In this document: positions 8,846-27,156 of the stretch, piece by piece
How positions within the stretch are numbered: position 1 is the first letter of the stretch
Layout: each line of letters opens with the position of its first letter
The notes under the pieces: generated by a model
The model's database searches: none
Seen by the model: only the letters and a program-made list of their open reading frames with translations
What the model was told of the DNA's origin: nothing
From: Microbacterium sp. SSM24
Lineage (GTDB): Bacteria; Actinomycetota; Actinomycetes; Actinomycetales; Microbacteriaceae
Reading direction: 5' to 3'
Assembly: GCF_025989145.1 (NCBI RefSeq)
Contig: NZ_JAPDNQ010000001.1
Coordinates: 1,054,001-1,118,000 of the forward strand
DNA length: 64,000 bases
Translations under genes and position numbers: made by a program

Positions 8846-8875
8846 ACGTGGCGGTGACGGTGGGATTTGAACCCA
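8846..8875 (-). repeat. attL: 30-bp copy of the tRNA-Ser 3' end
   Basis: Identical over 30 nt to 27127-27156. The sequence is the 3' part of tRNA-Ser(CGA): part of the T arm, the acceptor 3' strand, the discriminator G and CCA, plus 3 nt beyond. Identity stops sharply inside the T stem, so this is not a full tRNA gene. It is a displaced tRNA end left by site-specific integration. Confidence 0.88.
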
Positions 8876-8976
8876 TACCGGATGAGGTCACAGGGATCAC
8901 ATGAGGTCTCGGGAACGCGTGAAATCAACGATCTGGGTTCTCATGCGCTGCATCGAGTCACACTCGTTTCATTGCG

Positions 8977-9003
8977 TCTGTTCCCGCTTCTGTTCCCACT
9001 AGG
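8977..9003 (+). repeat. Island end repeat, left copy
   Basis: A TCTGTTCCC / CTTCTGTTCCC doublet about 100 bp inside the left junction. It has an imperfect inverted counterpart at 27035-27059 near the right end: roughly 22 of 27 positions agree when that copy is read on the other strand. Possible arm-type integrase binding sites or relics of element ends. Confidence 0.4.
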
Positions 9004-9160
9004 AGACCGTGGGAACGAGTCCATCGCGCCAAGGATCACCGCAGCGGGGAGATCGCTGACTCGACGATGTGGTGGATGGTCTCGACCGCGACTTGACCAG
9101 GGTCTGGCCTGCGCGCCCACGGACAGGCGGGGCACATGGTCGAACCCCGCCCCGTGTCGG

Positions 9161-9835
9161 TCAGCCGAGCTGCGCGAGAAGCGCCCGAGCGACCGACGCC
9201 GACGACTGAGGGTTCTGACCGGTGATGAGATTACCGTCAACGACAACGTGGTCCGCCCACGGGCTCGCGTTGTCGAGTACGACTCCGCGCTCACGAAGAG
9301 AGGACTCGAGGAGGAACGGCGCGCGGGTAGCAAGACCTGCCTGCGTCTCCTCCTCGTCTGTGAACGAGGTTACGGTGCGGCCGGCGGCGACGAGCGTGCC
9401 GTCTTCGCGGATTGCTGCGAGGAGCGCGGCGACACCGTGGCACACGAGGGCGACGGGCTTCGGCGAAGCAAGCGCCGAAGTGAGGAGGGCGCCGGAGGCG
9501 GCGTCGTGAGACAGGTCCTGCATGGGGCCGTGACCGCCGGGGTAGTACACGGCGTCGTACCCCGACAGGCCAACCTCGTCCAGGGTCAGCGGAGCGCCAA
9601 GACCCGCGATGGCGCCGAGCTGCGCACGCTCCGCCTCGCCGTTGTCGCCGAACGAGGCCTCGTCTGCGAGCGGGGCGATGCCGCCGGGGGTCGCGAACTC
9701 GACCGTGTGCCCGGCCTCGCTCAGGAGGCGGTAGGGGGTGAGCAGCTCCTCAGCCCAGTAGCCGGTTCTGTGAGCGGTGCCGTCGGACAGGGTCCATGTG
9801 CGGGCGGCGGAAACGACGAACAGGACGGTTGACAT
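9161..9835 (-). CDS. DJ-1/PfpI family protein (type 1 glutamine amidotransferase-like)
   Basis: 224 residues with the DJ-1/PfpI fold. The nucleophile-elbow cysteine is in PVALVCHGVAALL, and the upstream acidic-residue strand region is YDAVYYPGGHGPMQDL. Members act as glyoxalases, deglycase-like or chaperone-like proteins; the Cys-His pair is kept, so a glyoxalase III/Hsp31-like activity is possible. The ATG at 9835 with GGAGA upstream is preferred over a TTG 39 nt earlier. It is divergent from a LysR gene, its likely regulator, and is the first gene inside the island's left end. Confidence 0.85.
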   Translation of the reverse strand: MSTVLFVVSAARTWTLSDGTAHRTGYWAEELLTPYRLLSEAGHTVEFATPGGIAPLADEASFGDNGEAERAQLGAIAGLGAPLTLDEVGLSGYDAVYYPGGHGPMQDLSHDAASGALLTSALASPKPVALVCHGVAALLAAIREDGTLVAAGRTVTSFTDEEETQAGLATRAPFLLESSLRERGVVLDNASPWADHVVVDGNLITGQNPQSSASVARALLAQLG

Positions 9836-9913
9836 GAAATCTCCTTCTCTCGCGAATGCGCGACATCGGTTCAAACCGGGTCAGGCTCGGCACTCTTCCG
9901 ATAGCTTCATGAT

Positions 9914-10858
9914 GTGGGGTATCAGGATTTTGATGGTCTGGCGCACCTCCAGTTGTGGCGAACGTTTCTCGCCGTGTACGAGTCCGGTTCGCTTTCTTCC
10001 GCCGCGCGAATCGTCGGCCTGACCCAACCGGCCGTGTCCGCCCAGCTGAACTCCCTCGAGCGGCTCGTGGGCGAAAGGCTTTTCATGCGGACCGCTCGCG
10101 GTGTCGTTGCCACCGCCACGGCCGATGACTTGGCGGCACGGCTCTCCTCGCCATTCGAGGCGATATCGCGAGCGCTCGCAGGCTCAGCGGACTCGGCGCC
10201 GCAGCCGCCGGTACGGCTCGGAGGAGCTGCCGAGTTGCTCGCCGAAGTGGTCACTCCCGCACTTGCTCCGTTGATTGCAGACGGAGTGCGGGTCCATGTG
10301 GTTCCCGGGTTGCCGAACGAATTGTTCGACGCGCTGCGCTCCGGGACTCTCGACGTGGTCATCGCGTCCGAGCGCCCCCGTGGCCGAGCGCTGACCGCGG
10401 AGCCACTCGTCGATGAAACCTTCATCCTCACCGCGAACCCTGAGATCGCGACCTCCTTGCCCCGCACTGTGGAGGCAGCGGGCGCATCCGCACTCGAGCG
10501 CATTCCCCTGCTCGCGTACGCGAGCGATGTGCCCGTGCTCCGGCGGTATTGGAGGCAAGTGTTCAGTACCCGGCTCGAGCGTGAGCCGGCCCTCGTCTTT
10601 CCCGACCTGCGGGCGCTGCGCGATGCTGCGGCGGCCGGAGCTGGCGCGACCGTGCTCCCGAGCTACCTGTGTCGCCGAGAACTCGACACAGGAGCACTGG
10701 TCGACCTCGCACCGCACGTGACTTCACCCACGAACACTCTGCACTTGCTGCGTCGGCCAGCCAGCGCCGGTCGACCGCATGTGCAGCTACTAGTGGGAGT
10801 GCTGGACACGGCGGTGCGCGAGATCGTTGCCGACGGACGCGACAAGGGCAATCGGTGA
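9914..10858 (+). CDS. LysR family transcriptional regulator
   Basis: 314 residues. The N-terminal winged helix is clear (LWRTFLAVYESGSLSSAARI, then LTQPAVSAQLNSLERLVGER, about residues 14-56) and is followed by a periplasmic-binding-protein-like effector domain (DALRSGTLDVVIASERPRGR). A GTG start at 9914 gives the usual spacing to the HTH. It lies 78 bp from the divergent DJ-1 gene, the standard LysR target arrangement. It is distinct from the IclR pair that likely controls the rest of the island. Confidence 0.9.
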   Translation: MGYQDFDGLAHLQLWRTFLAVYESGSLSSAARIVGLTQPAVSAQLNSLERLVGERLFMRTARGVVATATADDLAARLSSPFEAISRALAGSADSAPQPPVRLGGAAELLAEVVTPALAPLIADGVRVHVVPGLPNELFDALRSGTLDVVIASERPRGRALTAEPLVDETFILTANPEIATSLPRTVEAAGASALERIPLLAYASDVPVLRRYWRQVFSTRLEREPALVFPDLRALRDAAAAGAGATVLPSYLCRRELDTGALVDLAPHVTSPTNTLHLLRRPASAGRPHVQLLVGVLDTAVREIVADGRDKGNR

Positions 10859-10919
10859 CACTCTCCCGCCCGGTCCCGATGCGCGAGGAGTAGAGGTCGC
10901 AGCGGTCTGGGGAGACAGC

Positions 10920-12365
10920 TCAGCTGCCAGGGACGAAGGCGTACTTGGTGTCCAGGTACTCGTGGATGCCCTCGTTGCCGCCCTCTCGGCCGAGGCCGGA
11001 CTGCTTCGTCCCGCCGAACGGGGCGGCGGGATTGGAGATGGCGCCGGAGTTCACCCCGAGCATGCCCGCGTCGATGGACGCCATCAGCCGATGCCCGCGT
11101 GCAAGGTCCGCTGTGTACGCGTACGCGGCGAGCCCGTACTCGGTGCTGTTGGCGAGATCGACCGCTTCAGCTTCGGTTGTGAACTTCGTGATGGACACCA
11201 CGGGACCGAAGATCTCCTCGCGGTACAGCCGCGAGTCGGTGGGCACGTCGGTGACGATGGTCGGCGGGAAGAACGCCCCGTCTTCCGCGCGCGGGCCCCC
11301 GACGATCTCGTACCCACCGGCGGCGACGGCCTCATCGACGAGCCCTCCAATGCGGATCGCGGCGTCACGGTTGATGAGTGGCCCGATGTCCACTCCCGCA
11401 TCCAGGCCGGGACCGACCCTCAACGCGTGCACGCGCTCGGCGAGCCGCTCCACGAAACGGTCGTGGATGTCTTCCTGCACGAGGAACCGGTTCGCGGCAG
11501 TGCACGCCTGACCGACATTGCGGAACTTCGCAATCATCGCCCCATCGACGGCGGCGTCCAGGTCCGCGTCGTCGAACACCAGGAACGGGGCGTTGCCACC
11601 GAGCTCCATAGACGTACGCAGGATGTTGTCCGCGGCCTGCTTGAGCAGGGTGCGCCCCACCCCCGTCGAGCCGGTGAAGCTCACCTTGCGCAGCCGAGGG
11701 TCCCGCATGAGCGCGTCGGAGACGGCCGCGGAGCGAGTGGAGGGGATCGCGTTGAGGACGCCCTCAGGGAGCCCGGCCTGTTCGAACAGCGACACCAAAT
11801 AGAGCGTCGTCAGCGGGGTGAGCGCGGCCGGTTTGATCACCGCTGTGCAGCCTGCTGCCAGGGCCGGTCCGATCTTGCGGGTCGCCATTGCCAGCGGGAA
11901 GTTCCAGGGAGTGATGAGGTAGCACGGGCCTACCGGTCGGTGGGTGACCAGCATCGCGCCCGTTCCCTCCGGGGTGCTGCCGGTCCGCCCGCCGGCGCGA
12001 ACGGCTTCTTCCGCGAACCAGCGGAGGAACTCCCCGCCGTAACGGACTTCGGCCGCCGACTCGCTGAGCGGCTTGCCCATCTCGAGGGTGATGAGCCGGG
12101 CGATGTCGTCCGCGTGCTCGACGACCAGTTCGAACGTGCGAAGCAGGATCCCGCTGCGCACCCGGGCTGGTGTCTTCGCCCACGCATCTGCTGCCGCAGA
12201 CGCCGCGTCCAGCGCCCGCAGCGCATCAGCCGGGGTGGCGTCGGCGATCTCGGTGAGGACTCGGTCGAAGGCGGGGTCGTGCACAGGGAAGGTTGTGCCG
12301 TCGGCGGAGTCCCGCCACTGCCCGTCGATGAACAGCTGCAATGGCAGGCCAGGGAGCGCACTCAT
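10920..12365 (-). CDS. NAD(P)-dependent aldehyde dehydrogenase, succinate-semialdehyde dehydrogenase-like
   Basis: 481-residue aldehyde dehydrogenase oxidising an aldehyde to an acid. Seen: cofactor region TPWNFPLAMATRKIGPALAA, the glycine motif FTGSTGVG, the general-base Glu in MELGGNAPFLVFDDADLD, and the catalytic Cys in RNVGQACTAANRF. The C-terminal GGTKQSGLGREGG matches the GabD-type subgroup. Its ATG overlaps the stop of the transketolase C-terminal gene (ATGA), so it is the third gene of that operon. It probably oxidises an aldehyde (glycolaldehyde, lactaldehyde or a semialdehyde) made by the transketolase or retro-aldol steps; which one cannot be told. Confidence 0.9.
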   Translation of the reverse strand: MSALPGLPLQLFIDGQWRDSADGTTFPVHDPAFDRVLTEIADATPADALRALDAASAAADAWAKTPARVRSGILLRTFELVVEHADDIARLITLEMGKPLSESAAEVRYGGEFLRWFAEEAVRAGGRTGSTPEGTGAMLVTHRPVGPCYLITPWNFPLAMATRKIGPALAAGCTAVIKPAALTPLTTLYLVSLFEQAGLPEGVLNAIPSTRSAAVSDALMRDPRLRKVSFTGSTGVGRTLLKQAADNILRTSMELGGNAPFLVFDDADLDAAVDGAMIAKFRNVGQACTAANRFLVQEDIHDRFVERLAERVHALRVGPGLDAGVDIGPLINRDAAIRIGGLVDEAVAAGGYEIVGGPRAEDGAFFPPTIVTDVPTDSRLYREEIFGPVVSITKFTTEAEAVDLANSTEYGLAAYAYTADLARGHRLMASIDAGMLGVNSGAISNPAAPFGGTKQSGLGREGGNEGIHEYLDTKYAFVPGS

Positions 12366-13321
12366 GCTCTGCCTCCCGCGACCAGCGTCACCGGGGAGTT
12401 GAGATAGCCACGGACCTGCTCCGCGACACGCTCCGGCGAGAGCCCGTACTTGTCGAGCAGGAAGTCGTTCGGACCGGACTCTGACCACTGATCTTCCAGG
12501 CCCAGCCGTGCCACCCGGGGAGCACCCTCCAGTTCGCTGAGGGTTTCGCTGATCAGCCCGCCGAGACCACCGATGGTCGTGTGCTCCTCGATGGTGATGA
12601 CCAGGCGAGCGCCGTCAACGGCGGCCAGCAAGGAGTGCACGTCCAGCGGCTTGATCGTGGGTACGTGGATGACTCGCACGTGGATGCCCGACTCGCTGAG
12701 AATGGCCGCGGCCTCGTTCACCCGTGAGCTCTGCACGCCGGTGGATACCAGCGCCACCACACCACCCGGATGCAACGTGACCACCTCGCCGAGGCGGAAT
12801 TGGTAGTTCTCGGGAAGGACGGCGGGGACAGCATCCCGGGCAATTCGGACATAGACGGGACCGTCGTGCGCTGACGCCCACCGGGTCATCTCAGCGATCT
12901 CCACCTCATCGGCCGGCGCGAGCACGGTCATGTTGGGCATCGCCCGCATGATGGCGAGGTCCTCGATGTCCTGGTGGGTCTTTCCGGAGCTTCCGTTGAG
13001 GAGGCCGCTGTAGGAGCCGGCGATCCGGACCGGCGCGTGAGTCTGCGAGACGAGCATGCGGATCGGGTCAAGGGCGCGGTGGGTGAGGAACACCCCGAAG
13101 GTGGACAGCCAGGGACGGAACCCGGCGGTGGTCAGTCCGAAGGCGATGCCGACCATGTTCTGCTCGGCGATACCCACTTCCACGAACCGGTCCGGGAACG
13201 CCTCGGCGAACTTGTCGGCCTTGGTGGAGTTGGCCAGATCACCGTCGACGACGACGATGCTCGGGTCCTCTGCCCCGATCTCCACCAGGGTGTCGCCCCA
13301 GACATCTCGTTGCGCTTTCAC
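12362..13321 (-). CDS. Transketolase, C-terminal subunit (split type)
   Basis: 319 residues carrying the pyrimidine-binding and C-terminal domains of transketolase. The catalytic glutamate that activates thiamine diphosphate is Glu53 in EVGIAEQNMVGIAFG. The domain continues through FGVFLTHRALDPIRM and a regulatory C-terminal domain (VALVSTGVQSSRVNEAA). It must pair with the N-terminal subunit encoded just upstream with a 4-nt overlap. Split transketolases of this kind often serve dedicated catabolic routes rather than the central pentose phosphate pathway, where actinobacteria use a single-chain enzyme. Confidence 0.93.
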   Translation of the reverse strand: MKAQRDVWGDTLVEIGAEDPSIVVVDGDLANSTKADKFAEAFPDRFVEVGIAEQNMVGIAFGLTTAGFRPWLSTFGVFLTHRALDPIRMLVSQTHAPVRIAGSYSGLLNGSSGKTHQDIEDLAIMRAMPNMTVLAPADEVEIAEMTRWASAHDGPVYVRIARDAVPAVLPENYQFRLGEVVTLHPGGVVALVSTGVQSSRVNEAAAILSESGIHVRVIHVPTIKPLDVHSLLAAVDGARLVITIEEHTTIGGLGGLISETLSELEGAPRVARLGLEDQWSESGPNDFLLDKYGLSPERVAEQVRGYLNSPVTLVAGGRA

Positions 13322-14232
13322 AGCACGGCCTCCTCGATTGCCAGTTCACGGCGGGCGATGGCGAGCTGCTCATCCGTGGCCACGCCGTTGTGCCACTTGT
13401 AGGTCCCGCGGGTGAAGGACACACCCTGCCCCTTGGCGGTGTGCGCGAGGATGACGGTGGGCCGGTCGGTGGCCGCAGCGTTCTTCTCCGCCGCGCCGTA
13501 CGCGGTGAGGATGTCGTCGAAGTCGTGCCCGTCGACTTCGAGCACGTTCCAGCCGAACCCGCTGAGGATCGCGCGCAGGTCGACGTGTGCCCACGGTTCG
13601 CTGCGGTCGAACCGGTCGCGATTGGGGACGGCGGGCCAGCCGAACTGCTGGAGGCCGTTGAGGTCGATGATGGCGATGAGATTGCTCAGCCCGTAACGGC
13701 TGGCGGAGTTGAACGCCTCCCAGACCATGCCTTCCTGAAGCTCCCCGTCGCCGAGCATCACCCAGGTGCGGTAGTCCGCGCGGATCTTCTTCGCACCCAG
13801 CGCGATGCCGACACCGGCCGACAGGCCTTGGCCGAGGGAGCCCGTGGACACGTCGATCCCCGGAGTGAGCTTCATGTCGGGGTGCCCCTGCAGACGGGAG
13901 TCGCCGTGATCGAAGGTGGCCAGCTCGTCCACAGGGAAATATCCCCGCAGTGCCAGCACACTGTAGAGACCGATGGCGGAGTGGCCCTTGGAGAGCACGA
14001 ACCGGTCGCGACTCGGGTCCTGGGGGTTCTCCGGGTCGATGCGCAGCTGCTGGAAGTACAGCGCCACCAGAAGATCGGTCATCGACAGCGGTCCGCCGAT
14101 GTGTCCGGCCTTGCTCTGCGCGACGGTGTTGACGATGTGCCAGCGCACCAGGCGCGACAGCCGCGCTAGCTCCGCGTGCTGTTGCGTCGTGCCGGACGGG
14201 GTGTCCAGACCGGGCCAGGCGTCTTCGCTCAT
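13318..14232 (-). CDS. Transketolase, N-terminal subunit (split type)
   Basis: 304 residues with the thiamine-diphosphate-binding domain. KAGHIGGPLSMTDLL (residue 41 on), SKGHSAIGLY (81), GSLGQGLSAGVGIALG (131) and the diphosphate/Mg motif GDGELQEG...IIDLNGLQ (161-195) are all intact. It is the first gene of an operon with the C-terminal subunit and an aldehyde dehydrogenase. An IclR-like operator lies 21 nt upstream of the ATG (14253-14267), which would place it under the island's IclR control. It transfers a two-carbon ketol unit from a ketose (phosphate) to an aldehyde. Confidence 0.94.
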   Translation of the reverse strand: MSEDAWPGLDTPSGTTQQHAELARLSRLVRWHIVNTVAQSKAGHIGGPLSMTDLLVALYFQQLRIDPENPQDPSRDRFVLSKGHSAIGLYSVLALRGYFPVDELATFDHGDSRLQGHPDMKLTPGIDVSTGSLGQGLSAGVGIALGAKKIRADYRTWVMLGDGELQEGMVWEAFNSASRYGLSNLIAIIDLNGLQQFGWPAVPNRDRFDRSEPWAHVDLRAILSGFGWNVLEVDGHDFDDILTAYGAAEKNAAATDRPTVILAHTAKGQGVSFTRGTYKWHNGVATDEQLAIARRELAIEEAVL

Positions 14233-14252
14233 GAGAGAATCCTACCTATTTA

Positions 14253-14267
14253 CGGACAGATTGTCCA
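14253..14267. promoter_or_regulatory. IclR-type operator, transketolase promoter
   Basis: Plus strand CGGACAGATTGTCCA, i.e. TGGAC-N5-GTCCG on the coding strand, 21 nt upstream of the transketolase start. Flanks CATAAAA and AAATAG are shared with the site before the phosphofructokinase gene. Classical IclR sites have the related form TGGAA-N5-TTCCA. Confidence 0.7.
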
Positions 14268-14332
14268 TTTTATGTACGTTTTTTGGGAGCGCAGAACCGC
14301 TGGATGCGGCTCAAGCGTTCAGACGGCGGCGG

Positions 14333-15382
14333 TCAGTTGATGAACCGGTCGTCTCGGAGGGCGGTGAGGTGGTCGATGAAGCTCTGATGAGAGTCGATGC
14401 AGTCCGCGAACCCGGCCTGCCGGATCTTGATGGTGCTCTGCACCATGTCGTAGTCCGTCCGCCACCACCCCTGCACGAACGGCCACGACACGAACTGATC
14501 GAAGGCAGGCTGGCGAAGTCCGCGCTCGAGGACGAGATCGGCCCAGTCCGCATCCCGCCCGAGCATGTGCGCCTCAAGCTCCATCGGCTGCGGTTCGTCG
14601 AAGGGCATGTCGAAGAACTCGGCGATGACCGGCCACAGATGGACCCAACGGAAGTGGTCGCCGTTGGTGACGTTGAAGACTTGGTTGCGGGCTGTCTGCG
14701 CGCCGTAGGCCCATTCGACGGCCCGGGCGAGAATGCGGGCATCGGTCGCCTGGTGCAGTGCCCGCCACGCTCCCCACGATCCCGGGAAGCGCAACGGCGC
14801 GTTCTCCCGTTTGCTGAGCATCGCGTACGCGGCAACGCCGGAGAGGATGTTCATCGGTGACCGGGCGCCGAAGCCGATGACGCCGTCCGGCCGCAGAATC
14901 GTCCACACGGCGTCCCGGCGGGCTGCCCACTCCCAGATCGCGTCCTCCTGGGGGTTGTAGAGGATGGGTCCCAGCAGTCTGCGGTCGGTCTCCTTCGCGG
15001 GTGTGCGGTACGGGCCGAGGTGCTCGCCATAGGACTTGCCACCGCCGATGAGCTGGAAGTGCTCGACCTCGGCACCGTCGCGGTCCAATGCGTCCAACAG
15101 GTGGACCACCATCTCGGCGTTGAGGGCGGTGGTCTCCGCGTGGGAGGCGCCCTCGACGTACCCGGCGTACACGACATGGGTCACGCCGGCGAGCGCCCCC
15201 TCGGCAATCCCGCCAGCGACGGACAGGTCGCCACGGAGGACCTGCTGGTCGGAGGTATCAACACGCCGCGGGCCGCTGCGTGAGAGCGCCGTGACCGCCA
15301 GCCCTCGGCTTGCCAGGTGGCGTGCGACGGCGCCACCCGTGACACCGCTCGCGCCCACAACGAGGTACTTGTTCTCACTCAT
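14333..15382 (-). CDS. PRISE-like SDR (progesterone 5-beta-reductase / iridoid synthase family)
   Basis: 349-residue NAD(P)H-dependent atypical SDR. After the Rossmann motif (LVVGASGVTGGAVARHLASR, residues 7-26) come PRISE-type hallmarks: ILRPDGVIGFGARSPMNILS, then NAPLRFPGSWGAW, and QVFNVTNGDHFRWVHLWPVI, which strongly match the plant and bacterial 1,4-enone reductase group. The region around LYNPQEDAIWEWAA replaces the usual YxxxK spacing with a lone Tyr. It probably reduces an enone or a carbonyl of an intermediate. Its ATG overlaps the stop of the Nfu-like gene; it is the last gene of the transporter operon. Confidence 0.78.
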   Translation of the reverse strand: MSENKYLVVGASGVTGGAVARHLASRGLAVTALSRSGPRRVDTSDQQVLRGDLSVAGGIAEGALAGVTHVVYAGYVEGASHAETTALNAEMVVHLLDALDRDGAEVEHFQLIGGGKSYGEHLGPYRTPAKETDRRLLGPILYNPQEDAIWEWAARRDAVWTILRPDGVIGFGARSPMNILSGVAAYAMLSKRENAPLRFPGSWGAWRALHQATDARILARAVEWAYGAQTARNQVFNVTNGDHFRWVHLWPVIAEFFDMPFDEPQPMELEAHMLGRDADWADLVLERGLRQPAFDQFVSWPFVQGWWRTDYDMVQSTIKIRQAGFADCIDSHQSFIDHLTALRDDRFIN

Positions 15383-15720
15383 GCGCACACTCCTGCCGGC
15401 GGATGCCCGATAGTCGGAAGACCCAGCGGAACCGACCCCGCCCTCACCCCGAGCCGCCGGCGAATGCTGGCGAGGGTCTGCGGTGAGGCATGGATCTGCG
15501 GGGCAGTGACCGAACGCACCCCGGGAACGGCTTCGACGTACGTCTGCACCAGCCCCGCGTAAGTGACCGCCATGGACGGGCAGTTCTCGCAAGCGCCGTG
15601 GAACTCGATGACGACGTCGCCTTCGTCACTGACAGTCGCGGTCATGTCGCCGGCGTGGCCGCGCAGCCGCGGCCGCACGAACTGCAGCGCCTGCTGCAGT
15701 CGCTCCGGATCGACGGTCAT
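15379..15720 (-). CDS. Nfu/NifU C-terminal domain protein
   Basis: 113-residue small protein with the NifU C-terminal (Nfu) fold. The Fe-S-binding CxxC is at FHGACENCPSMAVTYAGLVQ, following LRGHAGDMTATVSDEGDVVI. Nfu proteins carry or deliver Fe-S clusters. It is wedged between amidohydrolase and PRISE-like genes with 4-nt overlaps on both sides, so it belongs to the pathway unit, yet no Fe-S enzyme is recognisable in the island. It may serve an enzyme encoded elsewhere. The C-terminal 40 residues extend past the usual domain. Confidence 0.85.
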   Translation of the reverse strand: MTVDPERLQQALQFVRPRLRGHAGDMTATVSDEGDVVIEFHGACENCPSMAVTYAGLVQTYVEAVPGVRSVTAPQIHASPQTLASIRRRLGVRAGSVPLGLPTIGHPPAGVCA

Positions 15721-16727: not shown

Positions 16728-16751
16728 CTGTCTCTCCTCTTCACCTGCGAA

Positions 16752-17546: not shown

Positions 17547-17570
17547 GGCTCGTCGTTCCTTCCTTCCCGG

Positions 17571-18614: not shown

Positions 18615-18646
18615 GAGTTCTCCTTGAGGAATGTTGTTGAGGCGGG

Positions 18647-20134: not shown

Positions 20135-20150
20135 GAGTTTCTACTCCTCT

Positions 20151-20190: not shown

Positions 20191-20208
20191 ATTGATGGGA
20201 TGGGGGCG

Positions 20209-21219
20209 TCAGCCCTGTGAGCCGAAGTACTTCGCAGCTCGTGCTTCCTCGAGGTTGTCCTTCGTGACCAGGATCGACTCCTGGATCTGGTCCTTCGGGA
20301 TCTCCGACTCCTCGCCGTTCATCGCCTTGATGGCGTTCTGCACGGCGAGCTGGCCCTCGAGGTACGGCTGCTGGCTGATGGTCGCGGAGATCTGCCCTTT
20401 CTCAATGGCGTCGTAGGCGGCCGGGAACCCGTCGATGGTGACGATGGCCAGTCCGCTGCGACCGGCGGTCTCAGCGGCGCTGGCAACACCGAGGGCCATG
20501 TCGTCGTTCTGGGCGAACACGCCCTGCAAGTCTTCGTTGGCGGTGAGGACGTTAGCGAACACGCTGACCGCCTTGTTCTGATCCCAGTCGGCGCTGGTGG
20601 TGCTGACGACGTTGAGGTCGGGGTTCGCGTCCAGCGAGGTCTGGCAGCCCTCGGTGCGCTGCATCTGCGTGGACGAGGCCGGGATGCCCTCGACGAGGGC
20701 GATGTTGCCCTCTCCGCCGAGGAGTTCGGCGAGGTAGCCACACGCCTGCTCACCCATCGCCACGTTGTCGCTTCCGATGAACGTCACGTAGTCGCCGCCG
20801 GCAGGCAGCTGGTCCACCGCGATGACGGGGATGTTGGCGGTGTTCGCCTGGCCGACCGACGCTCCGCCGGATGCTGCGTCCAGCTGGATGAAGATGAGCG
20901 AGCCGACGCCCTGGCTGACCAGGTTCTGGACCTGGTTGACCTGTGTCGAGCTGTTGCCCTGAGCGTTCAGGATGACCAGCTCATAGCCCTGCTTCTCCGC
21001 CTCGTCTTCCATGCCTTCCTGCACGGCGGCGTAGAACTGGTTGACGAAGGACATCGACACCCCGATGGTCTTCTTCTCGCCGTCGCCGCTGTCGCCACCG
21101 TTGCCAGCGTCTGCGTTGCCGCTGGAGCATCCGGCGAGCATCAGCGCCGTTGCCGTTACGAGTGCGCCGACAGCCGCGGCGGCCGCGCGACGCCGCTTGG
21201 TTGTGATCTGAATCGACAT
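20209..21219 (-). CDS. Sugar-binding lipoprotein, ribose/RbsB type
   Basis: 336-residue extracytoplasmic receptor for the CUT2 transporter. It has a lipoprotein signal (basic start KRRR, hydrophobic stretch, lipobox LMLAGC with Cys31), then a Ser/Gly/Asp linker and the periplasmic-binding fold: KKTIGVSMSFVNQFYAAVQE, IFIQLDAASGGASVGQAN, VFAQNDDMALGVASAAE. It resembles receptors for ribose, galactose or polyols; specificity is not readable. ATG at 21219 has GGAAGG upstream. It follows an SDR gene by 72 nt in the same operon. Confidence 0.93.
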   Translation of the reverse strand: MSIQITTKRRRAAAAAVGALVTATALMLAGCSSGNADAGNGGDSGDGEKKTIGVSMSFVNQFYAAVQEGMEDEAEKQGYELVILNAQGNSSTQVNQVQNLVSQGVGSLIFIQLDAASGGASVGQANTANIPVIAVDQLPAGGDYVTFIGSDNVAMGEQACGYLAELLGGEGNIALVEGIPASSTQMQRTEGCQTSLDANPDLNVVSTTSADWDQNKAVSVFANVLTANEDLQGVFAQNDDMALGVASAAETAGRSGLAIVTIDGFPAAYDAIEKGQISATISQQPYLEGQLAVQNAIKAMNGEESEIPKDQIQESILVTKDNLEEARAAKYFGSQG

Positions 21220-21291
21220 CGACTCTCTACCTTCCTTGGTAAGGGACCTCACCGTAGTGGTGAGCTTGTGCGGACGCGTGGCGCGTCCAAA

Positions 21292-22083
21292 TCAGAGGAG
21301 TGTGAACCCGCCGTCCACGACGAGGTCCACACCGGTGCAGTAGGAGCCCGCGCCTGAGAGGAGGAAGACGGCGGGGCCTACCATCTCCTCCGGCTCAGCG
21401 AAACGCTCCAGCGGAATCTGGCGGCTGATGTCGGCGCGCATCGAGGCAACCTCTTCGCGCGCGTTCATCGGCGTGAGTGTGAACCCGGGGGCGAGCGAGT
21501 TCACGCGGATGGCGTGGGGTGCCCACTCGGTGGCCAATGACCGGGTGAGGTGAGCCACGGCGGCCTTGGCGCTGTTGTAGTGGGCCTGGAGCATCTCCCG
21601 GTGGGAGACGAGTCCGCTGATGGAGGCGAGGTTCAGGATCGAACCGCGTCCCGTGCGGATCATCGCGCGGGCCTCCGCCTGACAGCTGCGGAAGAGCCCG
21701 GTGACGTTGATGCGGTACATCCGCTCGAACTGATCGGTCGTCAGCTCGAGCGCCGGGACCGCGTCGGCGATGCCGGCGGCGTTCACCGCGAGCGAGAGAC
21801 CACCGAGGGTGGCCTCGACAGCTGCCACAGCGTCGGTCATGCCGTCTTCGCTGGTGACATCCGTTTCGATGGCGACCGCTTCGCCGCCGGCAGCGCGGAT
21901 CGCCACAGCCGTCTGCTCTGCGCCCTCGGCAGACGCGTCGGCGATGCCCACGCGGGCACCGCACTCGGCGAGTCCCAGGGCGATGGCGCGTCCGATCCCG
22001 GAGCCACCGCCGGTGACGATGGCGACCTCGCCCGTCAGCGAGAATACGGACCTCCCTGCGGCCGGCGGCGTCTCAGGCACCAT
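21292..22083 (-). CDS. SDR family dehydrogenase
   Basis: 263-residue classical SDR: TGGGSGIGRAIALGLAECGA cofactor loop (about residues 24-43), NAAGIADAVPA, active-site Ser in NLASISGLVS and YNSAKAA for YxxxK, ending in VDGGFTLL. It leads the long leftward operon SDR-RbsBAC-SDR-amidohydrolase-Nfu-PRISE and starts opposite the IclR genes. The shared promoter contains an IclR-like site. It probably catalyses the first oxidation of the imported compound. Confidence 0.9.
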   Translation of the reverse strand: MVPETPPAAGRSVFSLTGEVAIVTGGGSGIGRAIALGLAECGARVGIADASAEGAEQTAVAIRAAGGEAVAIETDVTSEDGMTDAVAAVEATLGGLSLAVNAAGIADAVPALELTTDQFERMYRINVTGLFRSCQAEARAMIRTGRGSILNLASISGLVSHREMLQAHYNSAKAAVAHLTRSLATEWAPHAIRVNSLAPGFTLTPMNAREEVASMRADISRQIPLERFAEPEEMVGPAVFLLSGAGSYCTGVDLVVDGGFTLL

Positions 22084-22197
22084 CGCGTTCTCGCTTCCTT
22101 GCGACGCGTAAAGTGCCCGAGTGGAAGAGCCGCTGTACGCATAACGGGTATTTGACTCGCCAATATACGCCCAGCGCTTCGTTCTTGTCTAGTTCTA

Positions 22198-22212
22198 CGG
22201 ACAAGATGTTCG
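22198..22212. promoter_or_regulatory. IclR-type operator in the iclR/SDR divergent promoter
   Basis: Plus strand CGGACAAGATGTTCG, a one-arm-degenerate copy of the TGGAC-N5-GTCCG site found before the transketolase and phosphofructokinase genes. It lies between the divergent operon starts at 22083 and 22301. A further half-site (TCTGTCCA) lies at 22273-22280, 20 nt before the first IclR start. Confidence 0.6.
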
Positions 22213-22300
22213 CAAAATGCGATTAGACCGTTTCATCTAGTGGCTAGCAAGTGTCTGCCACCTTCTGTAGAGTCTGTCCAGAAAACGGGAGGATGCAGTG

Positions 22301-23089
22301 ATGCAGCCAATGACAGACGCCGACGGCTCGGGAATGAGCGCGGTAACAAAGGCGACCCGTGTCCTCGAGTGCCTGGCGGAGGCCGGTGAGCTCACCGCAG
22401 CGGAGCTTGCAGCGAACCTCGGCGAGCCCATCACCACGGTGTATCGGATGCTCGGAAACCTCGAATCCATCGGCTGGGTCGAGCGAGGCGAACGCAAGGG
22501 GGCGCCCGTGCGGCTGGGGATCGATCTGGTCGCGCTCGGTCACGCCGTTGAGACTTCGCTCGACCTGCGAGCAGCCGCGCGGCTGTCACTGGCGCGGCTC
22601 GCCGAGGAGACAGCGGAGACGGCCTATCTCTGCGTGCCGGACGGGCAGCGCGGCGTGTGCATCGAGCGGGTGGACGGCAAGTACACCCGCACCGCAGAAC
22701 TGACAATCGGCGGCTCCCTGCCACTGCACCAGGGCGCGGGCCCGAAAGCGATCCTGGCGTTCTCGCCCGCGGACGTTCGCGACAACTATCTGCGCGCGTT
22801 GCGCGGGTCGCAGTCCAACCCCATCACCGAGCCCGAGGCGGTCAAGCTCGAACGGGAGTTGGACGCCATCCGGGAAGCCGGCGCCGTGCAGTCCGACGGG
22901 GACATCACCCCAGGGGTGTTCAGTGTCGCTGCGCCTGTCGTGGACCACCGTGGCCAGGTGATCGCCTCCATCACCCTCAGCGCGCTCAACGCGAGAGACG
23001 ACGCGCGCCATCGAGAGTTCGTTCAACTGGTGCGCCGGGAGGCCGCGGCCATTTCGACCACGCTGGGACATCACGATGCCGACCACTGA
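22301..23089 (+). CDS. IclR family transcriptional regulator (first of pair)
   Basis: 262 residues. The N-terminal winged helix (VTKATRVLECLAEAGELTAA, then TTVYRMLGNLESIGWVERG) is followed by the IclR effector domain (ETAYLCVPDGQRGVCIERVD; GGSLPLHQGAGPKAILAF). ATG at 22301 has GGGAGG at optimal spacing; a GTG 3 nt earlier is possible. It overlaps the next IclR gene by 14 nt. It probably binds the IclR-like sites in its own promoter and before the transketolase and phosphofructokinase genes. Confidence 0.92.
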   Translation: MQPMTDADGSGMSAVTKATRVLECLAEAGELTAAELAANLGEPITTVYRMLGNLESIGWVERGERKGAPVRLGIDLVALGHAVETSLDLRAAARLSLARLAEETAETAYLCVPDGQRGVCIERVDGKYTRTAELTIGGSLPLHQGAGPKAILAFSPADVRDNYLRALRGSQSNPITEPEAVKLERELDAIREAGAVQSDGDITPGVFSVAAPVVDHRGQVIASITLSALNARDDARHREFVQLVRREAAAISTTLGHHDADH

Positions 23090-23828
23090 CAAGCCGAGCC
23101 GCGTACTCACCTCACTTCGCACCGCAGTGGAGACTCTCGCCCGATCCGGCCCGCTCACCGCCCCGGAGCTGGCCAAAGAGATCGGCATCCCCCGTCCGAG
23201 CGCGTACCGGCTGATGGGTGCGCTCATCCAGGACGGGTTGGCGACGCAACAGCCCGACGGGGCGGTATCCCTGAGCACGAAGTGGTTGCACTTCGGCGAC
23301 CAGGCACTGGCCACCGCGACGCCGTGGTTTCACCATGAAGAGCTGCTCCGCTCGCTGCGGGACAGTTCCCGCCTCACCGTCTACCTGAGCGTGCCGCGTC
23401 CGCAGCGCACCGTCTGCGTGCGGCGTCTGCACGGTCAAGGCGTCCAGGTCCTCGTCCTCCACCCCGGCGGCAGCCTGCCGTTGCACCTGGGTGGCGTAGG
23501 CCGCATCACGCTGGCCTTCGGGGACGAGGAACCGGAAGAGTACCTGGCCGCCCACCACCCCGAACGCTTCACTCCGCGCTCACTCGAGACCCGGAAGGCC
23601 ATCCTGGACGATGTCGCCCTCAGCCGGGAGCGTCACTACTGCATCTCCGACGAGGACGTCACCGTCGGAGTCGGCGCCGTGGCCGCGCCCGTGCTGACTC
23701 CCGATGGCCAGTTCCTCGCGGCGCTGTCCATCGCCGGCCGCCGCGATGACATCGTGGGCCGCGAGAAGGACCTGGCCCGGCAGGTGCAGACGACCGCGGC
23801 GAAGATCGGTGATACCGCCGAGGTCTGA
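23076..23828 (+). CDS. IclR family transcriptional regulator (second of pair)
   Basis: 250 residues, paralogous to the upstream IclR: HTH around SGPLTAPELAKEIGIPRPSA and YRLMGALIQDGLATQ, effector domain with PRPQRTVCVRRLHGQGVQ, GGSLPLHLGGVGRITLAFG and VTVGVGAVAAPVLTPDGQ. Translation start lies within the first IclR gene (14-nt overlap), so the two are made together and could form hetero-oligomers. Either may respond to a different effector. Confidence 0.9.
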   Translation: MPTTDKPSRVLTSLRTAVETLARSGPLTAPELAKEIGIPRPSAYRLMGALIQDGLATQQPDGAVSLSTKWLHFGDQALATATPWFHHEELLRSLRDSSRLTVYLSVPRPQRTVCVRRLHGQGVQVLVLHPGGSLPLHLGGVGRITLAFGDEEPEEYLAAHHPERFTPRSLETRKAILDDVALSRERHYCISDEDVTVGVGAVAAPVLTPDGQFLAALSIAGRRDDIVGREKDLARQVQTTAAKIGDTAEV

Positions 23829-23854
23829 ATCATGGCTCGGCGGCCCACCGACAG

Positions 23855-24425
23855 TTAGGGGAGGATCGCGTCCACGTAACCGCCGTCGACGCGCAACGCG
23901 CCTCCCGTGGTCGCAGACGACAGCTCCGAGCTGAGATAGACGACCATGTTCGCCACCTCCTCCGGCCGGATGAGCCGCTGGGGATGGCTACCGCGGCATC
24001 ACTGGCGATAAACAGCACCGTCCCCACTTGCGTCCGAGCATCCCGGGGAGTGCCCGCCTGGTCAGACGGACCCCCGTGAGGACATTGGCGTCGTAGTGCT
24101 CCGCCCACACGTTCTCGGGCGTGCTGAGAACATTGCCGGACTGGTAGATGCCGATGTTGTTGACCAGGATGTCCACCCCCGGGAACTGGTCGAGAGCAGA
24201 CTGGGCGCCGTCATCGGTGCCCACATCGGGGACGACGCCCACGAACGTGCCGTCGGCGACCTCGCCCCGGAGGCCGGTCACCGCCGTCGCGACCGACGCC
24301 TGGGAGCGGCCGCTGACGCCGACGACAGCCCCGGCTTGGGCAAGCCGGACGGCCATGGCGTAGCCGAGACCGCGGGTGTCTCCTGTGACCAGGGCGCGCT
24401 TGCCGCTCAGGTCGAGGCTGATCAC
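23855..24425 (-). pseudogene. SDR pseudogene (frameshift plus active-site deletion)
   Basis: The 5' part reads as a normal SDR (LSGKRALVTGDTRGLGYAMA; DILVNNIGIYQSGNV), starting at a GTG just after the epimerase stop. Near 24030 the frame shifts: homology continues as VLFIASDAAVAIPS in another frame. It then jumps directly to the C-terminal PEEVANMVVYLSSELSS and TTGGALRVDGGYVDAILP in a third frame, ending at TAA 23855-23857. The central part with the YxxxK catalytic residues is missing. No functional enzyme can result. Confidence 0.85.
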
Positions 24426-24427
24426 CG

Positions 24428-25357
24428 TCAGTGCTTCGCGACGTGGTCGTGTGGGTCGCCCTTGCTGGCCCAGATCCGCTTGTACGAGCCGTGGACAAGG
24501 TCCTCCAGCAGGGTCGGCCCCACAGGATTCCAGCCAAGCTCGGTGCGCGCAAGCGTGGAATCCACGCGGCTGTTGCTGGCCAGGGCGACATCGACCCACC
24601 GCGCACCGAGGGTCTCGCGGGCGGTGTCCAGCGACACGCTCACCCCGGCACCCTGTCCCAGCACCTGCGCGATGCCGTCGGCGATCTCACGCAGCTCGCA
24701 CTCGCCGGACGCGATGTTGTAGACCGAACCGGCCGGCGCCTTCTCCAGCGCCAGCAGGTACAGCTCGGCGAGGTCGTAGAGGTACACGTTCCCCCACCGG
24801 TTCTCGCCGGTCTCGGCGAAGATGGACCGGCCGGAGCTGAGCGCTTGGCGCAGCAGCAGCGGGAGCTGCTCTGAGGCGCCGTCGCCGTAGACCATCGCGG
24901 GGCGGATGACGACGGTGCGCACACCATCGTTCTTGGCGGCGAGCACCAGTTCATCCGAGCGGTACCGGGCAGCGACGACCTCTGCGGGGGTGAACTCGTC
25001 GTCCTCGCGGTAGACGACCTCCGAGGCAACGCCTCCGGCGAGATCGGTGTACACGCCGGTGCCGCTGGTGCGGACGAAGGTGCGGTCGGTGCCGGCGAGT
25101 GCCGCGATGAACGCCGCCGTGGACGGGGCGTGGTCTGCGGTGGCCGTGTCCACGATGGCGTCGTAGCCGGACAGGTCCAGGCTCGCGACGTCGTCGAGGC
25201 CGCCGATGACCGGGGTGATGCCCTGCGCGGTGACCGACTTCGCGGCTGCGTCGGAGCGGACCAGCCCGGAGACACGGTGACCAGCCCGCAACAGTCGCTG
25301 CGCGATGGCCTGCCCCAGATAGCCGGATGCGCCGGTGATGAAGATGTGCTTGGTCAT
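24428..25357 (-). CDS. NAD-dependent epimerase/dehydratase family protein
   Basis: 309-residue extended SDR. N-terminal GASGYLGQAIAQRLLRAGHR cofactor loop, VVIRPAMVYGDGASEQLPLL, NVYLYDLAELYLLALEK and a C-terminal LGWNPVGPTLLEDL are typical of epimerase-like reductases. The active-site Tyr-Lys spacing is weak (AARYRSDE has no Lys four residues on), so reductase rather than epimerase chemistry, or an altered site, is possible. It sits between an ABM-domain gene (1-nt gap) and the SDR pseudogene, in the operon divergent from phosphofructokinase. Confidence 0.82.
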   Translation of the reverse strand: MTKHIFITGASGYLGQAIAQRLLRAGHRVSGLVRSDAAAKSVTAQGITPVIGGLDDVASLDLSGYDAIVDTATADHAPSTAAFIAALAGTDRTFVRTSGTGVYTDLAGGVASEVVYREDDEFTPAEVVAARYRSDELVLAAKNDGVRTVVIRPAMVYGDGASEQLPLLLRQALSSGRSIFAETGENRWGNVYLYDLAELYLLALEKAPAGSVYNIASGECELREIADGIAQVLGQGAGVSVSLDTARETLGARWVDVALASNSRVDSTLARTELGWNPVGPTLLEDLVHGSYKRIWASKGDPHDHVAKH

Positions 25358-25358
25358 G

Positions 25359-25685
25359 TCAGTGTTCCTTGTTGATGAGTGGCTCTTTGGCCTGAGCCGA
25401 GGTCTGCGAGAACTGGTCGACGGCGACCACGTCGACGCCGAGCGCCTCAAGGTCTGCAAGCAGCGTCGCCACCGCCGGAGAATCATCGTGCTGCCGCACC
25501 GCGTCCGGATCAGCGAACAGCTCCACCACGGTTCGTTCTCCAGGGCCGTCGGAGTCGTAGACGTCCCAGTGCAGGGTTCCCGCCTCGGCATGGAACGCCT
25601 CACGCGCACGGTGCAGAACCCGGTCTAGCGCGTGGGCGTTATCTACCTCGACGCGCAGTCTCACCACTTTCGCGATTGGCACCAT
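25359..25685 (-). CDS. ABM-domain protein, putative quinol monooxygenase-like
   Basis: 108-residue ferredoxin-like alpha/beta-barrel protein of the antibiotic-biosynthesis-monooxygenase (ABM/YgiN) family: AREAFHAEAGTLHWDVYDSD, ERTVVELFADPDAVRQHDDS. Such dimeric proteins oxidise quinols, degrade haem or act as lyases, so substrate and even reaction are uncertain. It is first gene of a short leftward operon and shares its promoter with the divergent phosphofructokinase gene, which carries an IclR-like site. Confidence 0.78.
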   Translation of the reverse strand: MVPIAKVVRLRVEVDNAHALDRVLHRAREAFHAEAGTLHWDVYDSDGPGERTVVELFADPDAVRQHDDSPAVATLLADLEALGVDVVAVDQFSQTSAQAKEPLINKEH

Positions 25686-25769
25686 CGCTCCACTTCACGG
25701 TCGTCGGGGGCACAATCAGTCCCTAGATGCGGATCTTCCGGACCCAGGTCCACCACGCTACACTATTTT

Positions 25770-25784
25770 CGGACACAACGTCCA
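25770..25784. promoter_or_regulatory. IclR-type operator, phosphofructokinase/ABM divergent promoter
   Basis: Plus strand CGGACACAACGTCCA (TGGAC-N5-GTCCG on the other strand), 19 nt upstream of the phosphofructokinase start. Outer flanks CTATTTT and TTTTATG match the transketolase site, so about 25 of 29 positions agree between the two copies. Confidence 0.72.
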
Positions 25785-25803
25785 TTTTATGGTTGGAGCA
25801 ATG

Positions 25804-26829
25804 ATGCCTCGGTTTGGGATTCTCACGAGTGGCGGGGACTGCCCGGGCCTCAACGCCGTCATTCGCAGCGCGTATATCCGTGTCACCCGCGAGTACGGCG
25901 GCAGTCTCGTAGGCTTCCGAAACGGATGGCGCGGCGTGCTGGACAACGACGTTGTTGAAGTCACCGAAGACATGACGCGCGGCGTCGCCGGGCAGGGGGG
26001 CACGATCCTCGGCACCTCACGCACGAACCCGACCGAGGGCGAGGATGCGCTCGAGCGTGTCTGGCATGCGATTGAGGCGAACGATTTGGACGGGGTCATC
26101 GCCATCGGCGGTGAGGGCTCGCTCAGCGCCGCTCATGCGCTCAGCTGCGCCGGCATCAAGGTGGTCGGCGTTCCGAAGACGATCGACAACGACCTCAATG
26201 GCACCGACTACAGCTTCGGCTTCGACACGGCCGTGCAGATCGCCACGGATGCCATGGACAGGCTGCTGACCACGGGCGCGTCCCACGGACGCTGCATGAT
26301 CGCGGAGGTGATGGGACGAAACTCCGGATGGATCGCATTGCACTCCGGCATCGCTACCGGCGCCCACGCCGTGCTCATCCCGGAGCATCCGGTGTCGCTG
26401 GACCAGGTCGTCGAGTGGGTGGAGTCCGCCAGGGACCGAAACCAGCCACCTCTCGTGGTGGTAGCCGAGGGCTTCCCGCTCGACGACGGCGAGGTGTACA
26501 ACCCACGTGGCGCGGAAGCATCCGGACGGCCACGGCTAGGTGGCATCGGCGAGCGGCTCGCACCACTGGTCGAGGCGCGCACAGGTATCGAGACCCGCGC
26601 CACCACCCTGGGCCACATTCAGCGCGGCGGGACACCCACCGCATACGACAGGGTCCTCGCCGCCCGGTTCGGGGCGGCTGCCGTCGACGCTGCCGCGTCC
26701 GCGCAGTGGGGCCAGATGGTTGCACTGGCGGGCGAGCAGATCGTCCGCGCAGATCTTGTCGATGCCATCGGGTCTGTCAAGCGCATCACGGCCGAACGGT
26801 ACGGGCGAGCGGCAGTCTGTTTCGGTTAG
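25804..26829 (+). CDS. 6-phosphofructokinase family protein
   Basis: 341-residue sugar-phosphate kinase of the PFK-A superfamily: GGDCPGLNAVIR (10-21), GGEGSLSAAH (102-111), PKTIDNDLNGTDYSFGFDT (124-142), MGRNSGWIALHSG (170-182). A Gly in the GGEGS position points to ATP as donor, while PKTIDND has the Lys typical of PPi-type or group III enzymes. The start at 25804 follows GGAG by 5 nt; an in-frame ATG at 25789 overlaps the operator flank. It may act on fructose-6-P or on a pathway-specific ketose phosphate such as sedoheptulose-7-P. Confidence 0.9.
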   Translation: MPRFGILTSGGDCPGLNAVIRSAYIRVTREYGGSLVGFRNGWRGVLDNDVVEVTEDMTRGVAGQGGTILGTSRTNPTEGEDALERVWHAIEANDLDGVIAIGGEGSLSAAHALSCAGIKVVGVPKTIDNDLNGTDYSFGFDTAVQIATDAMDRLLTTGASHGRCMIAEVMGRNSGWIALHSGIATGAHAVLIPEHPVSLDQVVEWVESARDRNQPPLVVVAEGFPLDDGEVYNPRGAEASGRPRLGGIGERLAPLVEARTGIETRATTLGHIQRGGTPTAYDRVLAARFGAAAVDAAASAQWGQMVALAGEQIVRADLVDAIGSVKRITAERYGRAAVCFG

Positions 26830-27034
26830 TCCGGGACTTCGCTCAATCCAACCAGTCGCTGCCAACTGACGTCATCCTCGAATACGACGAAGGCGACAAC
26901 GCGCAGCGCAATGCCGGAACGATCCGCCTCGCCTGTTCGGCTGCAGCTGACTCCGGCGGCGCGGCACCTAGGATGGTGCTCCAACCCACGGTAAGTCGCG
27001 GCCGATTTCCGCGAGAGTGCGAGCCTCGAAACGA

Positions 27035-27059
27035 CCAAGCGGGAACAGAACGGGACAGA
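27035..27059 (-). repeat. Island end repeat, right copy
   Basis: GGGAACAGAACGGGACAGA with CCAAGC before it is the imperfect inverted counterpart of 8977-9003. It lies about 70 bp inside the right junction, so both ends present the same motif at a similar distance and in opposite orientation. Confidence 0.4.
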
Positions 27060-27087
27060 AGTGTTCCCGTTTCTGGCCCGAAACACC

Positions 27088-27117
27088 GATCAGCGCCACT
27101 CGCGAGTAGCGCTGATC
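27088..27117 (-). terminator. Hairpin downstream of tRNA-Ser (island-supplied terminator)
   Basis: Arms GATCAGCGC and GCGCTGATC around an internally self-complementary centre (ACTCGCGAGT), 13 nt past the tRNA 3' end on the minus strand. It would replace the original terminator that now lies at 8804-8842. Confidence 0.55.
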
Positions 27118-27126
27118 AGGTATTTA

Positions 27127-27156
27127 ACGTGGCGGTGACGGTGGGATTTGAACCCA
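27127..27156 (-). repeat. attR: 30-bp core in the tRNA-Ser 3' end
   Basis: Identical to 8846-8875. It overlaps the last 27 nt of the intact tRNA-Ser gene (CCA, discriminator, acceptor 3' strand, part of the T arm) plus 3 nt downstream. Confidence 0.88.

Follow-up and report, generated by a model that had tools for sequence, protein, structure and literature searches.

Why does the 3' end of a tRNA-Ser gene occur twice, 18 kb apart, in Microbacterium sp. SSM24, and did the DNA between the two copies arrive as a unit? The window, by which we mean the whole stretch of 64 kb analyzed here, contains a single tRNA, tRNA-Ser(CGA), called at 27130-27220 on the minus strand, which is taken as the integration target. 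A first-pass annotation had noted this intact gene and an exact 30-bp repeat of its 3' end including the CCA, and both observations were confirmed. The distal attachment copy (8846-8875, minus strand) matches the proximal copy inside the intact tRNA (27127-27156, minus strand) at 30/30 positions as a direct repeat that spans the CCA, the acceptor stem and the T arm, and the sequences diverge immediately on both sides. This 30-mer is the sole distant pair among the direct repeats of at least 20 bases in the 64 kb, the remaining ones being local (45161/45168 and 61936/61960). A chance origin of the pair is ruled out by the exact match, its uniqueness as a distant repeat and the clustering of octamers described below.

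Arm-like repeats of the TGTTCCCG type, found by repeat search, are matched inside both attachment copies, as expected if the two ends derive from one attP. On the plus strand, the tandem pair GCGTCTGTTCCC GCTTCTGTTCCC lies within the island at 8974-8997, and the repeats AAGCGGGAACAGAACGGGACAG and TGTTCCCGTTTCTGGCCCG lie within its right end at 27037-27080. The octamer CTGTTCCC/GGGAACAG occurs four times in the 64 kb, three of these within ∼130 bp inside the two copies. Each copy is also accompanied by an inverted repeat. A native-type terminator hairpin (AGCCCCGCGATCCC / GGGTTCGCGGGGCT; 8804-8842, minus strand) was left with the displaced tRNA 3' fragment; hairpins of this type adjoin the intact tRNA in three relatives (G012, G017 and G085) and, by hand count, stand beside a core copy, gene or scar, in at least 51 of 366 congeners. 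The hairpin now found at the intact tRNA differs from it. This element-borne, replacement terminator-like hairpin is of the GATCAGCGC type (27088-27117, minus strand), which is also present at attachment copies of G019, G050, G085 and G100.

Islands inserted at tRNA genes by tyrosine integrases typically have a rebuilt tRNA on one side and a displaced 3' end on the other. The present locus is a clear case of this familiar kind of genomic island, with a tRNA 3'-end repeat at the far end, the intact tRNA opposite and cargo of sporadic occurrence. With a probability of roughly 0.83, we therefore read 8876-27126 as a genomic island that was inserted site-specifically at the 3' end of tRNA-Ser(CGA) by a tyrosine-type integrase and that is now decayed or CIME-like. 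A tyrosine-type integrase of the family known beside this tRNA in other Microbacterium species would have acted on a circular attP, consisting of a tRNA 3' end and a terminator flanked by arm-type repeats, and would have recombined it with the chromosomal tRNA 3' end. The element would thereby have supplied the 3' end and terminator of the rebuilt tRNA, and the old 3' end and its terminator would have been displaced by 18 kb. The element itself would be decayed or mobilizable in cis or trans (CIME-like), at a hotspot that is genus-wide.

The closest sampled relative, G012, bears directly on this reading. Its native-type terminator is joined straight to the tRNA, window positions 8769-8875 are continuous with its tRNA, its right flank is collinear at about 85-94%, and no transketolase-N relative was found in it at E≤1e-60. 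This junction, together with the collinearity of the module described below, makes insertion at the tRNA 3' end and acquisition of the block as a unit, as first proposed, the best fit. As to the empty site that the annotation had suggested looking for, G012 joins 8769-8875 to the tRNA, but it holds a different island of 15.7 kb there, and the exact junction of 8845 with the tRNA was not found. An exact two-flank empty site was not found because the left flank is accessory DNA; only its last ∼77 bp are conserved at the tRNA, none of the listed relatives shares more, and the DNA left of 8768 is accessory.

The annotated content of the block (transporter, transketolase, dehydrogenases and regulators) was borne out by Pfam and NCBIfam. 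Adjacent to the distal copy lie a DJ-1/PfpI family protein (9161-9835, minus strand, start inferred; PF01965) and a LysR-type regulator (9914-10858, plus strand; PF00126, PF03466). A run of minus-strand genes follows, comprising an aldehyde dehydrogenase resembling succinate-semialdehyde dehydrogenase (10920-12365, start inferred; PF00171, best NCBIfam TIGR01780, below cut-off), the C-terminal (12362-13321; PF02779, PF02780) and N-terminal, ThDP-binding (13318-14232; PF00456) subunits of a split transketolase, an NAD-dependent epimerase/reductase-like protein (14333-15382, start inferred; Pfam PRISE/Epimerase), an amidohydrolase-2 family hydrolase with 23 relatives in named genomes (15717-16727; PF04909), a first short-chain dehydrogenase (SDR1, 16752-17546; PF13561), a ribose-type ABC transporter permease (17571-18650; PF02653, NCBIfam ribose permease below cut-off), a sugar ABC transporter ATPase (18647-20134; PF00005, in two stretches), a ribose-binding-like solute-binding protein (20209-21252; PF13407) and a second short-chain dehydrogenase (SDR2, 21292-22083; PF13561). 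The top solved relative of the transketolase N-terminal subunit is 6yak, the N-terminal component of a split-chain transketolase, and those of the solute-binding protein are ribose- and sugar-binding proteins. Two IclR-type regulators are encoded on the plus strand (22298-23089, PF01614 and PF09339; 23076-23828, PF01614). On the minus strand, a short-chain dehydrogenase gene (23988-24420) is broken by a frame change and lacks ∼220 bp relative to G087, as judged from the alignment gap against G087 and G210 and from six-frame reading, and its NCBIfam matches are restricted to the N-terminal half. An NAD-dependent epimerase/dehydratase (24428-25360, minus strand, start inferred; PF01370) and a 6-phosphofructokinase (25789-26829, plus strand; PF00365) complete the block.

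The phosphofructokinase was considered as a trapped housekeeping gene, and this was rejected, since the genome has a second copy (G000:C1:2484989) and a phosphofructokinase gene adjoins the module in two further species of Microbacterium; it is thus counted as a member of the cargo. For the catabolic cargo, the majority of NCBIfam matches fall short of the cut-off. SDR1 scores above it for NF052558 (meso-2,3-butanediol dehydrogenase) and for a glucose 1-dehydrogenase subfamily, SDR2 barely above it for the same subfamily, and the phosphofructokinase is likewise above cut-off, matches that leave the substrate unfixed. The cargo is a module for uptake and breakdown of a putative sugar-like substrate, and it includes two IclR regulators. 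No pathway name for the combination of split transketolase and amidohydrolase was found from the NCBIfam matches; sulfoquinovose degradation is covered by a review (PMC9594981). The GC content of the island (66.5%) is slightly lower than that of the right flank (70.0%) and close to that of the left flank (67.4%), so that the island is unusually GC-poor weakly at best.

A transketolase-N relative at E≤1e-60 was found in 12 of 295 genomes including this one; the cargo is therefore sporadic among congeners, and the recurrence of the same 18-kb block at the same place in most sister strains, which the annotation had named as a refutation, is not borne out among congeners of other species. Between 10.9 and 26.8 kb, the cargo forms one collinear module. 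Among eight stretches fetched from the 11 of 294 other congeners with a transketolase-N relative, two (G087 and G210) contain it collinearly, each on a contig separate from the one with the tRNA, and it is collinear in a less complete form in four other actinobacterial genera. No tRNA was found near the module in six actinobacterial loci (L156-L161, ∼21 kb each), nor in the fetched 39 kb of G087 and 60 kb of G210, where the contigs end and a tRNA may lie farther away. Against G087, DNA identity is 74-78% in the module and mostly 82-90% in the right flank (one stretch 70%); against G210, the corresponding values are 70-76% and mostly 77-87% (one stretch 72%). A recent transfer from either genome is unsupported, as the module is less identical than the right flank.

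The integrase of the element was also sought. The genome has three PF00589 genes, none of them within the window, and the G110 integrase used as tblastn query gave no significant match in 182 kb around the island. Nor was an integrase hidden in the intergenic gaps seen by tblastn or by six-frame reading of the gaps by eye. No relaxase or conjugation family was found in 16 Pfam-scanned island genes and one NCBIfam-scanned gene, a scan that did not take in all overlapping ORFs and all small ORFs in four gaps, the gaps being read by eye. The island thus lacks the integrase gene of its own that would define an autonomous tyrosine-integrase element and, within the genes scanned, the relaxase or conjugation genes of an ICE or IME; within the same genes it agrees with a CIME, having kept attL and attR with no integration or transfer genes found, which is why we describe it as decayed or CIME-like. 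Of 149 genomes, 15 carry a related integrase gene, complete or in part, at most 2.3 kb from this tRNA and convergent with it. Since the block itself yielded no integrase, the tyrosine recombinase invoked by the annotation is suggested by these relatives, which carry one beside the same tRNA. The type of integrase that moved the island, the loss of its gene and the ability to excise are likewise putative.

In a variant of this reading that is possible, if doubtful, the island would have lacked an integrase from the start and would have been moved in trans by that of a co-resident element, rather than losing its own after insertion. Only ∼300 bp, arms included and with no integrase trace, separate the stop codon of the phosphofructokinase from the core, and the island-bearing contig of G012 has no PF00589 gene. 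Loss is favored by the integrases, whole or partial, that lie within 220 bp of the same end in 12 of these 15 genomes (12/149), and by the broken ones in G017 and G085, which point to decay in progress.

Less probable still is a composite, in which an older element, present before the lineages of this genome and G012 parted, would have left the left scar and arm, a younger one would have supplied the right end, and a deletion would have fused the two without a single arrival. G012 does share the left attachment copy and arm region (window 8779-9007, G012:C3 1559507-1559702) with different cargo and another right end, and the right-end terminator of the present island is of another type. Against this, the 13-mer TCTGTTCCCGCTT is common to the left and right arm regions in inverted orientation. 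Among 22 elements, the longest inner word shared by both ends averages 9.6 compared with 8.8 in mismatched controls, a modest excess; the word of 13 in this island is tied for the longest, and only 5/22 reach 11. The collinearity of the cargo as a single module also favors one arrival.

That the copy at 8846 is a conserved duplicate tRNA fragment unlinked to insertion, the other refutation foreseen by the annotation, is very improbable, because most of 149 congeners have a single 24-mer copy, the counted extras, all on the 3' side, vary in distance between 4.3 and 99.7 kb, and the G012 terminator joins the tRNA. The island reading is thus retained, and the tRNA-Ser(CGA) locus is a recurrent hotspot, filled by other elements in other species and not by a single event. 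Extra same-strand copies of the 24-mer number at least 29, counted in 25 of the 149 genomes including this one, and all 29 lie on the 3' side of the tRNA. This count scores exact 24-mers, so scars with mismatches are missed, and it excludes genomes with an extra copy on the opposite strand megabases away (G094, G099, G135) or on another contig (G023, G048, G051, G087, G124, G144), G055 with two copies on separate contigs, and genomes with a second copy beyond the matches listed, G010, G082 and G128 among them. The extra copies on the opposite strand or on another contig speak against the island reading. No description of this hotspot was found in the titles and abstract openings of open PMC texts.

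For CIMEs, and for tandem accretion at the 3' ends of tRNA genes, definitions are given in PMC5704250. The island resembles CIMEs in keeping attL and attR, in that no integration or transfer genes were found, and in its position at the 3' end of a tRNA gene that also accretes other elements; it differs in being actinobacterial, in that no integrative conjugative partner was identified beside it, and in that its mobilization is only putative. The Dehalococcoides ssrA islands, 15 of which are reported to be without an integration module (PMC3146451), share with it a recurrent RNA-gene hotspot, a downstream series of direct repeats of the 3' end, catabolic cargo that is specific to the strain, and the absence of the integration module in some. 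According to the same report, they involve a serine recombinase and tmRNA, whereas the integrases of the relatives here are of the tyrosine type (PF00589) and the target is tRNA-Ser(CGA). Like tRNA islands of tyrosine integrases in general, the locus combines a rebuilt tRNA with a displaced 3' end, and the integrase of relatives is convergent with the tRNA. It differs from them in its missing integrase and in that, at most of the element ends inspected, a terminator-like hairpin adjoins the core.

Taken together, a hint in raw sequence has become a bounded element, and the insertion port at which it lies is genus-wide and holds different catabolic islands in two close species. The pathway of split transketolase and amidohydrolase is conserved and recurs in soil actinobacteria and, in a looser form, in rhizobia. 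The matched arm-like repeats and element-borne tRNA terminators make movement of integrase-less islands in trans directly testable. Tentatively, tRNA-Ser(CGA) might serve as a port of catabolic exchange, at which a family of elements, each with an arm-repeat dialect of its own and a replacement tRNA terminator adjoining the attP core, would swap whole nutrient-use modules between species and accrete them as serial 3'-end scars; an integrase whose dialect matches might then still move integrase-less islands such as this one in trans.

The 30 bases at window positions 8846-8875 recur exactly and in direct orientation at 27127-27156, with no third copy in the window and with identity ending at once on either side. 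The single tRNA in the window is tRNA-Ser(CGA) at 27130-27220 on the minus strand, found by ARAGORN with the concurrence of Rfam; the intact gene lies at the right end of the block, and its 3' end points toward the block. Both the exact 30-bp repeat of the tRNA 3' end and the intact gene had been claimed in the first-pass annotation and were confirmed. Eleven bases at 26983-26993, ~145 bp left of the tRNA, repeat the tRNA word AACCCACGGTA; this may be due to chance or may be an older attachment remnant.

The window covers G000:C1:1054001-1118000 of a 3.40-Mb assembly. The closest of 149 sampled genomes to our own, judged by right-flank DNA, is the congener G012, in which the right flank (27255-44293) is collinear at ~85-94% identity. 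Positions 8769-8875 (107 bases) align to G012:C3:1543995-1543891, where the final 27 bases coincide with the first 27 of the G012 tRNA 3' end. Since the alignment is continuous with this 3' end, the left scar and its terminator represent DNA downstream of the G012 tRNA. The terminator hairpin (8804-8842) or a close form adjoins a core copy, either gene or scar, in at least 51 of 366 genomes by hand count. The intact tRNA in the window has a different hairpin of the GATCAGCGC type (27088-27117); of the sites examined, 3 of 43 at intact genes and 5 of 24 at scars were flagged for this type. Strong folds (< -20 kcal/mol, 60 nt beyond the core) were present at 42/43 intact genes and 20/24 scars, counts derived from fractions, as compared with 48% and 47% in the controls.

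A different island of 15.7 kb occupies the space between G012's own two att copies (G012:C3:1543891-1559632, L064-L065). Eight of the nine ORFs scanned in it have a Pfam family, including amidase, X-Pro dipeptidyl peptidase and oligopeptide ABC transporter parts, a content that differs from ours; two close species thus carry different catabolic islands at one tRNA. The left ends of both islands are homologous over 8779-9007; this would also fit a composite origin of our island, with an older left scar and a younger right end fused by deletion.

The site is widely used in the genus. An exact 24-mer from the tRNA 3' end was present in 138/149 genomes and, among the matches listed, 25 genomes including our own held 29 extra copies on the contig and strand of the intact gene, at distances of 4.3-99.7 kb (median 20.6 kb). 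All 29 of these same-contig, same-strand copies lie on the 3' side of the tRNA. Exceptions occur on other contigs or the other strand: G094, G099 and G135 each have an additional exact 24-mer in opposite orientation, separated from the tRNA by megabases. Relatives of the integrase of G110 (E<=1e-30) were detected in 77/149 genomes, and in 15/149 (G003, G007, G017, G021, G023, G048, G051, G078, G085, G087, G109, G110, G112, G118 and G129) one lies convergent to the tRNA within 2.3 kb, 12 of them within 220 bp. These tRNA-adjacent integrases are partial in G017 and G051 and broken in G085, and those of G007 and G112 are partial matches only. At G017:C11 ~157538-159290 (L070-L071), the integrase is cut short and followed by a transposase-like gene, presumably of an insertion sequence. 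G129 contains two tandem elements (C15:5379-27165; L146, L147), each with its own integrase by its att copy, the second integrase adjoining the first scar.

Our genome encodes three proteins of the tyrosine-type integrase family PF00589, none of which is located in the window. Tblastn with the G110 integrase protein gave no significant match in the 182 kb around the island, and a partial match was found far off at C1:2395018; likewise, no PF00589 gene was found on the G012 contig bearing the 15.7-kb island. The island ends carry arm-like repeats, inferred to be integrase arm sites: a tandem pair with TCTGTTCCC inside the left copy (8974-8997), and GGGAACAGAAC-GGGACAG and TGTTCCCG-TTTCTGGCCCG inside the right copy (27037-27080), with the inverted 13-mer TCTGTTCCCGCTT common to both ends. 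Read by eye, the ends of other elements show the same plan in different letters; examples are G118 and G129, with GTTGCCAC pairs at either end, G021 with GTTGTCAC and G087 with GTTCACAC. In a blind test of 22 elements from 19 genomes, the longest shared word averaged 9.6 in true end pairs versus 8.8 in mismatched pairs and reached 11 in 5/22 true pairs versus 7% of mismatched ones, a suggestive but not decisive excess in support of matched arms.

The left flank beyond 8769 is absent from the G012 tRNA locus in the alignment, and positions 1-8760 match G012, G017 and G095 only in short, scattered pieces. A further 118 kb to the left gave only scattered matches (>250 bp considered) to the tRNA regions of G110, G052, G068 and G017. 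The resulting ~127 kb (G000:C1 936001-1062768, own genome), with no collinear run against the relatives' tRNA regions compared, is a long accessory region. When 8250-8875 was searched in 366 genomes, only our own spanned left flank and att copy among the matches listed. Relatives of the regulator gene immediately left of the island (6548-8398) lie on the 3' side of the tRNA in three other species where the tRNA position is known (G137, 12 kb; G049, 20 kb; G011, 41 kb), so this regulator may likewise be an accessory gene. Given such a flank, unmatched at the relatives' tRNA, the island seems to rest on top of older accessory DNA.

The transporter, transketolase, dehydrogenases and regulators claimed for the block were all found within 10.9-26.8 kb, where the cargo comprises an aldehyde dehydrogenase, a split transketolase, an epimerase-like protein, an amidohydrolase, two dehydrogenases, a ribose-type ABC transporter, two IclR regulators, a broken third dehydrogenase, an epimerase and a phosphofructokinase. 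The broken gene, a short-chain dehydrogenase (23988-24420), has a frame change and lacks ~220 bp relative to the G087 module. Gene order is conserved in the congeners G087 and G210, where phosphofructokinase again forms the same edge of the module, and in both genomes the module and the tRNA are on different contigs. Transketolase-N relatives (E<=1e-60) occur in 12/295 congeners, our own included. Stretches were compared for 8 of the 11 others, leaving out G011, G158 and G228 (~45% identical); two contain the whole module and six only the transketolase pair and IclR regulators, with aldehyde dehydrogenase in some.

Amidohydrolase loci in named genomes number 23. Six are actinobacterial, at 83-90% identity (Promicromonospora, Herbiconiux, Subtercola, two Microbacterium, Mycolicibacterium), and carry most of the module, which in Mycolicibacterium is rearranged with transketolase subunits at just 37-38%. 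Sixteen are alphaproteobacterial (59-67%), ten of these with relatives of the transketolase subunits (34-43%) in the compared stretch, and one is from an actinobacterial MAG (54%). Seven plasmid records have a relative, six rhizobial (~60-63%) and one from Nonomuraea (36%). Module DNA is 74-78% identical to that of G087, below the mostly 82-90% of the right flank, and ~75% identical to Promicromonospora over 11.6 kb; on these sequence identities, the donor is probably not among the genomes so compared. The module would take up a sugar-like compound through the ABC transporter, oxidize it by the dehydrogenases and hydrolyze it by the amidohydrolase; transketolase would then transfer a two-carbon unit, and the resulting aldehyde would be oxidized.

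In anatomy, the island agrees with the definition of a cis-mobilizable element (CIME) in PMC5704250. The nearest full parallel is the Dehalococcoides ssrA region, for which PMC3146451 describes islands arranged in tandem and marked by repeats of the 3' end, with 15 islands lacking an integration module. Together, these likenesses place the island in an already known kind of element. No published description of a tRNA-Ser(CGA) hotspot in Microbacterium was found among the titles and abstract openings listed from open PMC texts, and within this hotspot context the island is a good example of that kind.
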